From contig NC_013530.1 in NCBI RefSeq assembly GCF_000024965.1, positions 3,286,001 to 3,350,000 of the forward strand: a stretch of 64,000 nt of DNA. Reading direction: 5' to 3'. This DNA comes from Xylanimonas cellulosilytica DSM 15894. Its GTDB lineage: Bacteria > Actinomycetota > Actinomycetes > Actinomycetales > Cellulomonadaceae. Numbering within the stretch: position 1 is the first letter of the stretch; each line of letters starts with the position of its first letter. The notes below the pieces were generated by a model. That model saw only the letters and a program-made list of their open reading frames with translations, searched no databases and was not told the DNA's origin. The position numbers were made by a program, and so were the translations under genes. Below are positions 2,348-49,197 of the stretch, piece by piece.

Positions 2348-3075
2348 AGCGGCGCCTCCGCGTACAGGCCGGCGAGGTACAGGTCGCGCTCCGTGGTGAT
2401 CTTCAGCGCCGCCTCCTCGCCCAGGACGACGACGACCTGCTCCCCCAGCGCCTCGACCAGGCCGGCGTCGTCGGTGGCGTGGGCGTCCGGGTCGCGTGCG
2501 GCCCCGGCGGCGTGCGCCCGGTCGAGGAGCGCGCGGTCGAAGCCCTGCGGCGTCTGGACCGCGCGGAGCACGGACCGGTCCGGGGTGGAGGTCACGGGTT
2601 CGACGACGGTCCCCGACGTGCGGGTGGCAGACGGCGCGGCGGACACGGCCTTGACCGTATCAACGACCGGCAGTCCCGGCACGACGGCGCCGTTCCCGGC
2701 CCGGACGGCGGCGACGACACGTCGCACCAGGTCAGCCGAGGCGAAGGGTCGTGCGGCGTCGTGGACCAGGACGACGTCGGCGCCGTCGTCGGCCTGCGCG
2801 AGCCCTGCGGCGACCGACTCCTGCCGGGTGGCTCCTCCGGCGACGACGTGGACCGGCACGGTGATCTGCGTGTCGCCGCCGACGACGTCGGACATCGCGG
2901 CGACGAGCCGGTGCGGGGCGGTGACGACGATGGCGTCGACGACGCCCGAGGCGGCGAGGCGGCGCGCGGCGTGAACCACCATCGGTGTGCCCGCGACCTC
3001 GACGAACGCCTTGGGCACGTCCCGGCCCAACCGCGTGCCCGACCCGGCCGCGGTGAGGATCGCCAGCGTCGTCAT
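2344..3075 (-). CDS. ispD: 2-C-methyl-D-erythritol 4-phosphate cytidylyltransferase
   Basis: IspD couples MEP with CTP. The 243-residue protein begins with the nucleotidyltransferase loop [10 protein letters not shown] at residue 8 and carries LVHDAARPF near residue 110 and the late motif VQTPQGF. The ATG at 3075 is preceded by CAGGGT (3082-3087) and exactly 6 nt, a spacing seen at many starts in this window that suggests a leaderless transcript. A strong terminator (3095-3128) separates it from carD, so ispD-ispF-tetR probably has its own promoter here. Confidence 0.95.
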
Positions 3076-46194: not shown

Positions 46195-46375
46195 GGTCTC
46201 ACCTCCGTCCGGGCACGGTTGCGCCGCTCCAGGGCGCACCGGTCCCCCAGCCTCACCTGCCGCGACAGGTCCCGCCAATCGGTGCTGGCGCCCGCTGATC
46301 GGCCACGCATCGGCCCGTCTCAAATCTGCGTCTCACGATCTGGGATCACGGTTGGCCGCCGCCGCGCCGTGCGGC

Positions 46376-46381
46376 TACGGT
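46376..46381 (+). promoter_or_regulatory. leaderless -10 of the metY leader
   Basis: TACGGT, then exactly six C residues, then ATG at 46388. Confidence 0.6.
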
Positions 46382-46387
46382 CCCCCC

Positions 46388-46411
46388 ATGACTCGTCGAA
46401 TGTGCCGCTGA
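46388..46411 (+). CDS. candidate leader peptide MTRRMCR of the metY-metX operon
   Basis: Seven codons (Met-Thr-Arg-Arg-Met-Cys-Arg) and TGA, 160 nt before metY. The ATG is placed exactly as in the leaderless genes of this window. It carries Met and Cys, the sulfur amino acids related to the downstream enzymes. Cysteine-responsive leader peptides upstream of sulfur genes are known in actinobacteria; this one is inferred from position and content. Confidence 0.5.
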   Translation: MTRRMCR

Positions 46412-46571
46412 CCCAGCGCACGTTCGCCTGCCCGGAACCTCCGCCCCTGGAACCTCCGGCATCGCGTGCGCAGATGCTCGTCGCGGACCTCCCGGCCATG
46501 CAGCAGGCCCTCGCAGGGACCTCCGCGACACGCACCCCCACCCTCGCAGTTGCCCCGTTCGGAGGAACCCC

Positions 46572-47957
46572 ATGAGCACCCCCGCCAACCCCCCGGCCCA
46601 GTGGTCGTTCGAGACCCGCCAGATCCACGCCGGCCAGACCCCGGACCCCGTCACCGGGGCCCGCGCCCTGCCGATCTACCAGTCGACGTCGTTCGTCTTC
46701 CCGAGCGCGGAGGTCGCCGCGGACCGGTTCGCGCTGAAGGACCTCGGCCCGATCTACACCCGCATCGGCAACCCCACGCAGGAGGTCGTCGAGAACCGCC
46801 TGGCGAACCTCGAGGGCGGCGTCGGCGCGCTGCTCACCGCGAGCGGCGCGTCCGCGATCCACCTCGCCGTGCTGAACGTCGCGCAGGCGGGCGACCACAT
46901 CGTGAGCTCGTCGTCGCTCTACGGCGGCACGTACAACCTGTTCCACCACACGCTGCCCAAGCTGGGCATCGAGACGACGTTCGTCGACGACCCGCACGAC
47001 CCGCAGCAGTGGCGCGACGCCGTCCGCCCGAACACCAAGCTGTTCTTCGGCGAGTCGATTCCCAACCCCAAGTCCGACGTGCTCGACGTCGCGGCCGTCG
47101 CGGGTGTCGCGCACGAGGCCGGCGTCCCGCTCATCGTCGACAACACCGTCCCGACGCCGTACCTGCTGCGGCCCATCGAGCACGGCGCCGACGTCGTCGT
47201 GCACTCGGCCACCAAGTACCTCGGCGGGCACGGCTCGTCGATCGGCGGCGTGATCATCGACGGCGGCACGTTCGACTACGCGCAGCACCCGGACCGCTTC
47301 CCCGGCTTCAACGAGCCCGACCCGTCGTACCACGGCCTGGTCTACGCCCGTGACCTGGGCGTGGGCGGGGCGTTCGGCGTGAACCTGTCCTACATCCTCA
47401 AGGCGCGCGTGCAGCTCCTGCGCGACCTGGGCCCCGCCATCAGCCCGTTCAACGCGTTCCTGCTGGCCCAGGGCCTGGAGACGCTCTCGCTGCGCATCGA
47501 GCGGCACGTCGCCAACGCACAGCACGTGGCGCGGTGGCTCGAGGCGCGCGACGACGTCGCCGTCGTGCACTACGCGGGCCTGGAGTCCTCGCCGTACTAC
47601 GCCAACGCGCAGAGGTACACGCCGAAGGGCGCGGGCGCCGTGCTCGCGTTCGAGCTGGCCACGACGTCGGACGACGACGCCCGCGCCGCCGGGCAGGCCT
47701 TCGTCAGCGCGCTCGAGCTCCACTCCAACGTGGCGAACATCGGCGACGTGCGGTCGCTGGTGATCCACCCGGCGTCCACCACGCACTCGCAGCTCACGCC
47801 GGACGAGCAGCGCCTGTCCAGCGTCACCCCGGGCCTGGTGCGCCTCGCCGTCGGCATCGAGAACGTCGAGGACATCCTCGCGGACCTCGAGCTGGGCTTC
47901 ACGGCCGCGAAGGGGTCGCTGGCGCAGACGCCGACCACGTCCGACGCCGGCGCGTGA
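46572..47957 (+). CDS. metY: O-acetylhomoserine sulfhydrylase (aminocarboxypropyltransferase)
   Basis: 461-residue PLP enzyme of the Cys/Met metabolism class. YQSTSFVF near residue 36, YTRIGNPTQEVVENRLANLE near 58, ASGASAIHLAVLNVAQAGDH, and PLP lysine in VVHSATKYLGGHGSSIGG near 218. Length over 425 with the extra loop marks MetY (sulfide to homocysteine) rather than MetB. The ATG follows GGAGGA by 6 nt. metX begins 40 bp after its stop, so the two form an operon. Confidence 0.93.
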   Translation: MSTPANPPAQWSFETRQIHAGQTPDPVTGARALPIYQSTSFVFPSAEVAADRFALKDLGPIYTRIGNPTQEVVENRLANLEGGVGALLTASGASAIHLAVLNVAQAGDHIVSSSSLYGGTYNLFHHTLPKLGIETTFVDDPHDPQQWRDAVRPNTKLFFGESIPNPKSDVLDVAAVAGVAHEAGVPLIVDNTVPTPYLLRPIEHGADVVVHSATKYLGGHGSSIGGVIIDGGTFDYAQHPDRFPGFNEPDPSYHGLVYARDLGVGGAFGVNLSYILKARVQLLRDLGPAISPFNAFLLAQGLETLSLRIERHVANAQHVARWLEARDDVAVVHYAGLESSPYYANAQRYTPKGAGAVLAFELATTSDDDARAAGQAFVSALELHSNVANIGDVRSLVIHPASTTHSQLTPDEQRLSSVTPGLVRLAVGIENVEDILADLELGFTAAKGSLAQTPTTSDAGA

Positions 47958-47997: not shown

Positions 47998-49197
47998 GTG
48001 ACCGACCCCCAGCGCCCCGGCCAGGACGCGCGCGCACGCGTCAGGCCGCCCGTGCCGGCGTCGGGTGCATGGCGTCCCGGGGACGACCCCGGACGCCGGC
48101 AGTTCGCCGCGCTGGGCGGGCTCGAGCTCGAGGGCGGCTGGCTGCTGCCCGAGGTGACGCTGGCGTACGAGACCTACGGGACGCTCGACGCCGACGGCGG
48201 CAACGCCGTGCTGATCCTGCACGGCCTCACCGGCGACTCCCACGTGGCCGGGCCTGCCGGGCCCGGCCACGTGACCGGCGGCTGGTGGACGGACATGGTC
48301 GGCCCCGGCCTGCCCCTGGACACCGACCGCTACTTCGTCGTCGTGCCGAACGTGCTGGGCGGCTGCCAGGGCTCCACCGGCCCCGCGTCGACGGCCCCCG
48401 ACGGACGCCCGTGGGGCGCCCGCTTCCCCCGCCTGACGACGCGGGACCAGGTCGCGGCCGAGGTCCTCCTCGCGCGGCAGCTCGGGATCACGGGCTGGGA
48501 GCTGGTGGCCGGGCCGTCCCTGGGCGGGCTGCGCGCCCTGGAGTGGGCGGTGCTCGGCCCCGAGGCAGGCATCGAGGTGCGCGGCCTCATCGCCATCGGC
48601 ACGGCGGCGCAGGCCAGCGCCGACCAGATCGCGTGGTCGCACCCGCAGCTCGCCGCGATCCGGCTCGACCCGGGCTGGCGCGACGGCGACTACTACGACG
48701 CGCCCGACGGTCAGGGTCCGCACGCGGGGCTCGCCATCGCGCGGCAGATCGCCCACACCACGTACCGCACGGCGGGCGAGCTCGAGACCCGGTTCGGCCG
48801 CCTGCCGCAGGGCGGCGAGGATCCCTTCACGGACGGCCGGTACGCCGTCCAGTCGTACCTCGACCACCACGGCGACAAGCTCGCCCGGCGGTTCGACGCG
48901 AACTCCTACCTGGTGCTCACCGAGTCGATGAACACGCACGACCTGGGCCGCGACCGCGGCGGCGTCGACGCGGCGCTCGCGTCGATCACGGCGCGCACCC
49001 TCGTGGTGGCCATCGACTCGGACCGCCTGTTCCCCGTCGAGCTCTCGGCCCGCATCGCGGCCGGGATCCCGGAGGCGCACGACCTGCGCGTCCTGCGCAG
49101 CCCGCACGGCCACGACGGGTTCCTCATCGAGTTCGACCAGCTCGGCCCGATGGTGCGCGACTTCCTCGAGGTCGAACGGGTGCGCGCTCCCCGCTGA
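47998..49197 (+). CDS. metX: homoserine O-acetyltransferase
   Basis: 399-residue alpha/beta-hydrolase-fold enzyme making O-acetylhomoserine for MetY. Nucleophile Ser in VAGPSLGGLRALEW near residue 167, VLILHGLTGDSHVAG near 73, catalytic Asp in VVAIDSDRLFP near 340 and His in SPHGHDGFLIEFDQL near 370. GTG start at 47998 with GAGGA 8 nt upstream. In-line with metY, supplying its substrate. Confidence 0.94.
   Translation: MTDPQRPGQDARARVRPPVPASGAWRPGDDPGRRQFAALGGLELEGGWLLPEVTLAYETYGTLDADGGNAVLILHGLTGDSHVAGPAGPGHVTGGWWTDMVGPGLPLDTDRYFVVVPNVLGGCQGSTGPASTAPDGRPWGARFPRLTTRDQVAAEVLLARQLGITGWELVAGPSLGGLRALEWAVLGPEAGIEVRGLIAIGTAAQASADQIAWSHPQLAAIRLDPGWRDGDYYDAPDGQGPHAGLAIARQIAHTTYRTAGELETRFGRLPQGGEDPFTDGRYAVQSYLDHHGDKLARRFDANSYLVLTESMNTHDLGRDRGGVDAALASITARTLVVAIDSDRLFPVELSARIAAGIPEAHDLRVLRSPHGHDGFLIEFDQLGPMVRDFLEVERVRAPR

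Follow-up and report, generated by a model that had tools for sequence, protein, structure and literature searches.

A conserved Arg-Met-Cys leader upstream of metY-metX in Xylanimonas cellulosilytica and its relatives: a candidate ribosome-mediated attenuator

What is the function of the seven-codon reading frame that precedes the metY and metX genes of Xylanimonas cellulosilytica DSM 15894, and could it sense the supply of sulfur amino acids? The locus belongs to the 64,000-nt stretch of DNA analysed here (positions 3,286,001 to 3,350,000 of NC_013530.1; hereafter the window). The original prediction described a TACGGT box, six C residues, an ATG, seven codons and a TGA, followed by three CCTCCG copies and the metY ribosome site CGGAGG, and all of these elements are indeed present in the sequence. 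The leader (ATG ACT CGT CGA ATG TGC CGC TGA, encoding MTRRMCR) directly follows the six C residues (46382–46387) and ends 160 nt before the metY start; the CCTCCG copies occupy positions 46438–46443, 46453–46458 and 46520–46525. The product of metY was recognized by NCBIfam as a bifunctional O-acetylhomoserine/O-acetylserine sulfhydrylase (750 bits, with a cut-off of 703), and the next gene was named MetX by the same resource. The features of the locus are listed in Table 1.

Table 1. Observed and predicted features of the metY-metX upstream region (positions are those of the window).
Feature	Position	Strand	Basis or remark
TTGGCC, weak −35-like hexamer	46352–46357	+	18 nt before the −10 box; missed by consensus scan
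TACGGT, predicted −10 box	46376–46381	+	TANNNT kept in relatives
Leader ORF MTRRMCR	46388–46411	+	Predicted start at transcript 5′ end
CGA-ATG-TGC, invariant codon core and hairpin A 5′ arm	46397–46405	+	Conservation, fold
GCGCACGTTCG, shared arm	46416–46426	+	Folds, conservation
Hairpin A	46418–46426 with 46397–46405	+	Folds
Helix B	46416–46423 with 46464–46471	+	Folds
GCGTGCGC, helix B 3′ arm	46464–46471	+	Fold; CGTGCGC enrichment
Local hairpin, stem GTCGCGGA (46480–46487) with TCCGCGAC (46522–46529)	46480–46529	+	Centroid fold and consensus fold of nine close relatives
C-rich stretch, candidate Rho-loading region	46530–46556	+	Inferred from base composition
CGGAGG, metY ribosome-binding site	46560–46565	+	Sequence
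metY, O-acetylhomoserine/O-acetylserine sulfhydrylase	46572–47957	+	NCBIfam
metX, homoserine O-acetyltransferase	47998–49197	+	NCBIfam

Distribution and genomic context of the leader

MetY relatives came from two sources: 200 genomes belonging to the window's family, of which 30 loci were retained, and a set of named genomes, of which 80 loci were retained and which included Cellulosimicrobium, Isoptericola, Cellulomonas, Actinotalea, Paraoerskovia, Demequina and Georgenia. A TANNNT box located 6 or 7 nt upstream of the ATG of a short ORF encoding Arg-Met-Cys was found in 48 of the 51 nearest metY loci (L004–L054, a set in which the window's own locus and several species are counted twice) and in 8 of 60 further loci. 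The exceptions among the nearest loci were L028 and L048, which are cut by contig ends, and L042, which genuinely has no leader. The latter locus, from Miniimonas arenae, encodes a close MetY relative (79%), and both the leader and a SAM-IV riboswitch are missing upstream of it. The leader is therefore real and conserved, and the peptide proposed in the original prediction, which named absent conservation in relatives as grounds for refutation, has come through that check, being kept at the position expected of a leaderless gene.

Whole genomes were searched with the pattern TANNNT-N5-8-ATG-N3-12-CGNATGTGY, with the reversed pattern as a control. Matches were seen in 109 of 121 genomes of the family (102 of the 112 good ones), compared with 11 matches in all for the control. 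Within the order sample, 74 of 297 genomes had matches, a number of which fall in families other than the leader-bearing ones and seem fortuitous (the reversed controls gave 12 matches); a leader followed by metY was read in families f1, f77, f82, f85, f86 and f91 of the order. Exact patterns returned the own genome and three out-of-frame matches in the class sample (246 genomes), and the own genome and one match with an in-frame stop in the phylum sample (396 genomes), so that no coherent leader was detected outside the order with these exact patterns, which looser variants would escape.

The C directly before the leader ATG is present in 98% of 91 dereplicated promoters. A general scan for sigma-70 promoters (9 of 12 bases required) found none at the leader and the start-site prediction thus rests on the conserved −10-like box, its spacing and this C; the leader transcript is predicted to be leaderless, with its 5′ end at ATG 46388. 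Further upstream, the promoters are enriched in repeats, namely GTCTCA, centred near −71 and again near −58, and GAGAC near −47, with GTCTCA found in 37 of the 91 promoters versus 1.9 expected. Given this enrichment, the promoter is probably also under the control of a DNA-binding regulator. In the window, GTCTCA (46317–46322), GTCTCAC (46330–46336) and TGGGAT (46341–46346) form an operator-like arrangement of the kind enriched in homologous promoters. A simple inverted-repeat pattern matched 19 of 104 promoters, the window's own not being among them.

The leader is associated with genes of sulfur amino acid metabolism. MetY was matched by 54 of the downstream ORFs extracted after leaders; the leader also stands separately before metX (L171, L172, L174, L235, L236 and L239) and, as MRIVRMCRLCR or a close form, before cysK (L173, L234 and L237). 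These metX and cysK assignments were made by tblastn and, for L173 and L174, by NCBIfam as well. The cysK gene of the own genome (L191, G000:C1:1197028-1197948, minus strand) is preceded by a different Cys-rich upstream ORF (uORF), VRIAVAPHAVPANRTPSCCRACR, which begins with GTG and has its own ribosome site. A cysK uORF with two or more Cys among its last eight codons was found in 17 of 26 loci (those of 30 that passed the start filter), a count made without a chance control. In L175 (G069:C12:519000-524500) the leader region occurs twice, at 3036 on the plus strand and at about 1879 on the minus strand, in opposed orientation ∼1.1 kb apart; the second copy precedes a fragment that we take to resemble an NlpC/P60-type cell-wall gene.

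Codon core and predicted alternative RNA pairings

The leader appears, from its pattern of conservation, to be under selection as a coding sequence. In all 103 leaders that have the conserved RNA arm described below, the start codon shares its reading frame with CGA-ATG-TGY, and indels comprise whole codons, whereas the spacer between the stop codon and the arm varies from 1 to 8 nt with no respect for frame. Among 107 distinct leaders, which were chosen by exact CGAATGTGY, the wobble position of the Cys codon is free (54 TGC and 53 TGT). The core CGA-ATG-TGY (Arg-Met-Cys) is invariant and CGA stays fixed even in searches allowing CGN: the five rows without CGA among the family genomes comprised two in G012, neither near metY, one each in G085 and G060, which carry a CGA leader before metY, and one in G024, which has a CGA match besides. 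CGA accounts for 38 of the 1115 Arg codons (3.4%) in 30 probable genes of the window and for none of the 56 in metY plus metX. An invariant Met-Cys before metY, metX or cysK is what would be expected of the codons of an attenuator. Most leaders have a single Cys codon, and relatives have up to three; contiguous Cys runs of the MTRRMCCC type occur in some relatives only and are absent from the window leader, which has one Cys.

The strongly conserved sequence GCGCACGTTCG lies directly 3′ of the leader stop and, according to the folds, can take part in either of two pairings that would exclude each other. In hairpin A (−17.9 kcal/mol, z −3.96), its portion GCACGUUCG pairs with the leader codons CGAAUGUGC. 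In helix B, GCGCACG pairs with CGUGCGC, located 5–131 nt further downstream wherever that exact sequence is present. A k-mer ranking of 67 dereplicated downstream regions, run without a preset target, placed CGTGCGC first among 7-mers (48 regions versus 5.3 expected), together with GTGCGC (55 regions versus 9.7 expected). The original prediction had directed attention to alternative pairings of 46560–46565; masking of this site is not conserved, and the conserved pairings involve the shared arm, which it did not name.

Of the 107 distinct leaders, 98 had a recognizable metY start and 96 a recognizable arm. Folding of these 96 homologues paired the shared arm with the leader in free RNA (median probability 0.84) and with the downstream sequence when stalling was imitated (median probability 0.81). 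Consensus folds contained hairpin A in eight of eight clades and, after removal of the part that a ribosome would cover, helix B in five of eight. Pairs were counted on 15 aligned sequences because the 3′ arm is misaligned in some clades of the 30- and 23-sequence alignments; a 17-sequence alignment was also left out. Paired cells made up 99.2% for hairpin A and 89.2% for helix B in these 15 sequences, and no pair of either helix had changed on both sides.

An exact 7-nt complement of the own arm is present in 69 of the 96 sequences. The arm GCACACG is accompanied by CGTGTGC in 4 of 4 cases versus 0 of 92 others, in a register shifted by two bases; GCGCACA has its exact complement in 2 of 2 versus 5 of 94 others and GCGCACC in 1 of 6, and no exact 7-nt complement was found for CCGCACG (0/2), ACGCACT (0/2), GAGCACG (0/1) or ACGCACC (0/1). 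Covariation was considered as proof of helix B and set aside as weak, the best case, GCACACG, having proved to be register-shifted.

Proposed mechanism and competing explanations

We consider it fairly likely that the leader is part of a ribosome-mediated attenuator of metY-metX that responds to the supply of Cys and perhaps Met. Transcription would start at ATG 46388, so that a 70S ribosome could load on the leader at once. With plentiful charged tRNA-Cys (and perhaps tRNA-Met), the ribosome would complete MTRRMCR and depart, and the leader codons would then be free to form hairpin A and thereby exclude helix B; the C-rich RNA before metY would be left open, probably to Rho, and transcription would end early. 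Under Cys shortage, it would instead stall with TGC in the A site, covering the 5′ arm of hairpin A. If the ribosome is assumed to reach 15 nt beyond the P site, its leading edge in this stalled state would lie at 46415, one base before GCGCACG, leaving this arm free for helix B, upon whose formation metY-metX would be transcribed. Several points speak against this scheme: a sensor would hardly be expected to rely on a single Cys codon, neither helix shows two-sided covariation, complements of changed arms are kept in part only, and the g19 loci described below retain the peptide while lacking the arm.

The output step is suspected to involve Rho. No intrinsic terminator was found by scan, TTTT being present in only 3 of 96 homologous regions. 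The excess of C over G in 46412–46556 ranks at the 99.4th percentile among stretches of equal length, a base composition compatible with Rho loading.

The main rival, which we regard as rather unlikely, is timing or arrest at the codon level: the rare CGA followed by AUG would slow or hold the ribosome, and the switch would be set by this step rather than by charging of tRNA-Cys alone. CGA decoding places an inosine–A wobble pair in the P site. In genus g19 (L228–L233), all six loci keep the leader peptide and CGA-ATG-TGY (MTTRMCC, MTKRMCC, MTMRMCC and MTKRMCS) and have lost the GCGCACGTTCG arm; hairpin A alone therefore cannot account for the fixed CGA. The rarity of CGA in the window is in line with such timing, as is the presence of CGA in nine Cys-containing uORFs linked to SAM-IV riboswitches (see below), although these were selected for containing CGAATG and three comparable uORFs do without it. 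The Cys codon and the sulfur-gene context, however, indicate an amino-acid signal.

It is quite unlikely that stalling on the leader acts on translation, by opening or closing the metY ribosome site. This possibility is suggested by the CCTCCG copies in the window and by the translation attenuation of Mycobacterium smegmatis Cys genes that is cited in the accessible text of PMC13236596. The original prediction had the CCTCCG copies masking CGGAGG, and in this respect it is not supported: 71 of 96 homologous regions contain no CCTCCG, only 13 of 89 have an exact 6-nt match to the complement of their metY ribosome site, and masking was rejected as not conserved among relatives. Masking by the leader codons was rejected as well, since CGTTCGGAGG could pair with CGAATG in the window and relatives do not keep this pairing. 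Nor did the accessibility of the ribosome site change consistently, simulated stalling making it more open in 20 and less open in 8 of the 96 folded regions. In the folding models, the CCTCCG copies seem rather to belong to the stems of local hairpins. What stands of the earlier interpretation is a short sulfur-gene leader with a conserved Met-Cys and alternative pairings.

A leader that merely keeps ribosomes on the young message, giving constant protection against Rho and sensing nothing, seems very improbable. C exceeds G in all 96 homologous regions, and an expression-raising role has been proposed for leader genes (PMC4833913, accessible text), but constant protection would not explain why Arg-Met-Cys is fixed, why the leader accompanies sulfur genes or why there are two exclusive pairings. 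We give hardly any credence to a ligand- or protein-binding RNA element with an incidental ORF, for which the strongly conserved RNA right after the stop might speak, given the frame kept in 103 of 103 leaders with whole-codon indels, the retention of the peptide without the RNA arm in g19 and the absence of an Rfam match at the gathering score.

SAM-IV riboswitches and other known systems

The place that the leader holds before metY is taken in other loci by the SAM-IV riboswitch (RF00634). When 40 leader-free metY loci were scanned with Rfam, 33 proved to have it, 18 of 20 in one set (19 of 54 loci plus L055) and 15 of 20 in the other (20 of 29 distant loci), compared with none of 20 leader-bearing metY loci. 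At the gathering score, neither the window nor these 20 leader-bearing loci had any Rfam match, and no SAM family was matched in 46250–46620 at a relaxed threshold. A relaxed-threshold match on the other strand to a human lncRNA model was dismissed as implausible. Six SAM-IV matches do lie in other parts of the own genome.

In 9 of the 33 SAM-IV loci, a Cys-containing uORF with in-frame CGA-ATG lies 34–41 nt after the aptamer and before metY: L055 (VCTSRMCSSR), L060 (MCCCCRMTSR), L061 (MHSCCCRMPRR), L062 (MSCCRRMLLR), L065 (VSCCRRMHSR), L253 (MCRCRMTGVAGA), L254 (MCCCCRMTRR), L259 (MCCCRMQQVTGA) and L271 (MCIRRMCCR, 38 nt after the aptamer). SAM-IV-linked Cys uORFs without CGA-ATG were seen in L058, L256 and L260. 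The nine uORFs show that CGA-AUG next to Cys also occurs outside the leaderless form, and the loci that carry them might be double sensors of SAM and Cys. From this comparison of loci, the leaderless leader may be what remained after loss of the riboswitch. We tentatively suggest, as a possibility rather than an expectation, that Arg(CGA)-Met(AUG) by Cys forms a device common to the metY leaders of actinomycetes that goes beyond a Cys counter, either a slow-codon step or a joint Met/Cys sensor, and that it was born downstream of SAM-IV, in an arrangement like that of L271; in the window's lineage the riboswitch would have been lost, the leader would have become 5′-terminal and its own codons would have come to serve as the switch strand. 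If the leader works as proposed, loci with SAM-IV alone, with SAM-IV plus a Cys leader and with the leader alone, all before one gene, would allow a comparison of how riboswitch and peptide sensors are combined or replaced, and the invariant CGA-AUG-UGY poses the question of what the leader senses besides tRNA charging.

The leader appears to be undescribed in the literature searched, most subscription papers lying outside that search; it is not described in the accessible text of PMC8079986, PMC1262725, PMC4633059, PMC9031893, PMC13236596, PMC9094748, PMC2965389, PMC12810186 or PMC11260477. The nine SAM-IV loci with Cys uORFs resemble two aptamer-then-uORF pairs of Mycobacterium tuberculosis: the Mbox riboswitch with a translated uORF, for which Rho-dependent termination has been shown (PMC12810186, accessible text), and the B12 riboswitch of ppe2 with a uORF, for which it has been suggested (PMC11260477, accessible text). 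These pairs have other ligands, and the words SAM-IV and cysteine are absent from both main texts.

Candidate Cys leader peptides have been reported for cys operons of Mycobacterium and Propionibacterium acnes and for cbs of Bifidobacterium longum (PMC1262725). As far as the accessible text of that paper goes, these are, like the window leader, short Cys-containing ORFs with no clear terminator, for which Rho was suggested, but they have runs of Cys codons near the stop, and no conserved RNA structure is reported for methionine genes. The LEU element of actinobacterial leuA, described in the same accessible text, likewise has leader codons in an RNA stem; there, however, the run of codons is paired with the ribosome site of leuA, whereas the codons of the window leader would pair with the sequence after their own stop. 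The metL leader of metNIQ in Streptomyces lividans (...CMCRRMCAF; PMC8079986, accessible text) is described as leaderless and has a similar Arg-Arg-Met-Cys ending; compared by peptide, it differs in having 29 codons and in preceding a methionine importer.

A close parallel is offered by the mycobacterial polycysteine leaderless short ORFs (Canestrari et al., 2020, as cited in the accessible text of PMC9031893, PMC9094748 and PMC13236596), of which first examples are given in PMC4633059 (accessible text). Judging from these texts, they resemble the window leader, itself predicted to be leaderless, in being short ORFs that contain Cys codons and precede genes of sulfur metabolism, and in both the speed of the ribosome is proposed to report Cys. 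Unlike the polycysteine ORFs, the window leader shows no conserved masking of the ribosome site and has a single Cys beside a fixed Arg(CGA)-Met in seven codons, its own codons would be the switch strand, and its genes are metY, metX and sometimes cysK. If the proposed attenuation is correct, leaderless, ribosome-sensed control of sulfur metabolism would no longer be limited to mycobacteria but would include a further group of actinobacteria, for whose leader of only seven codons there is a concrete model of alternative pairing.
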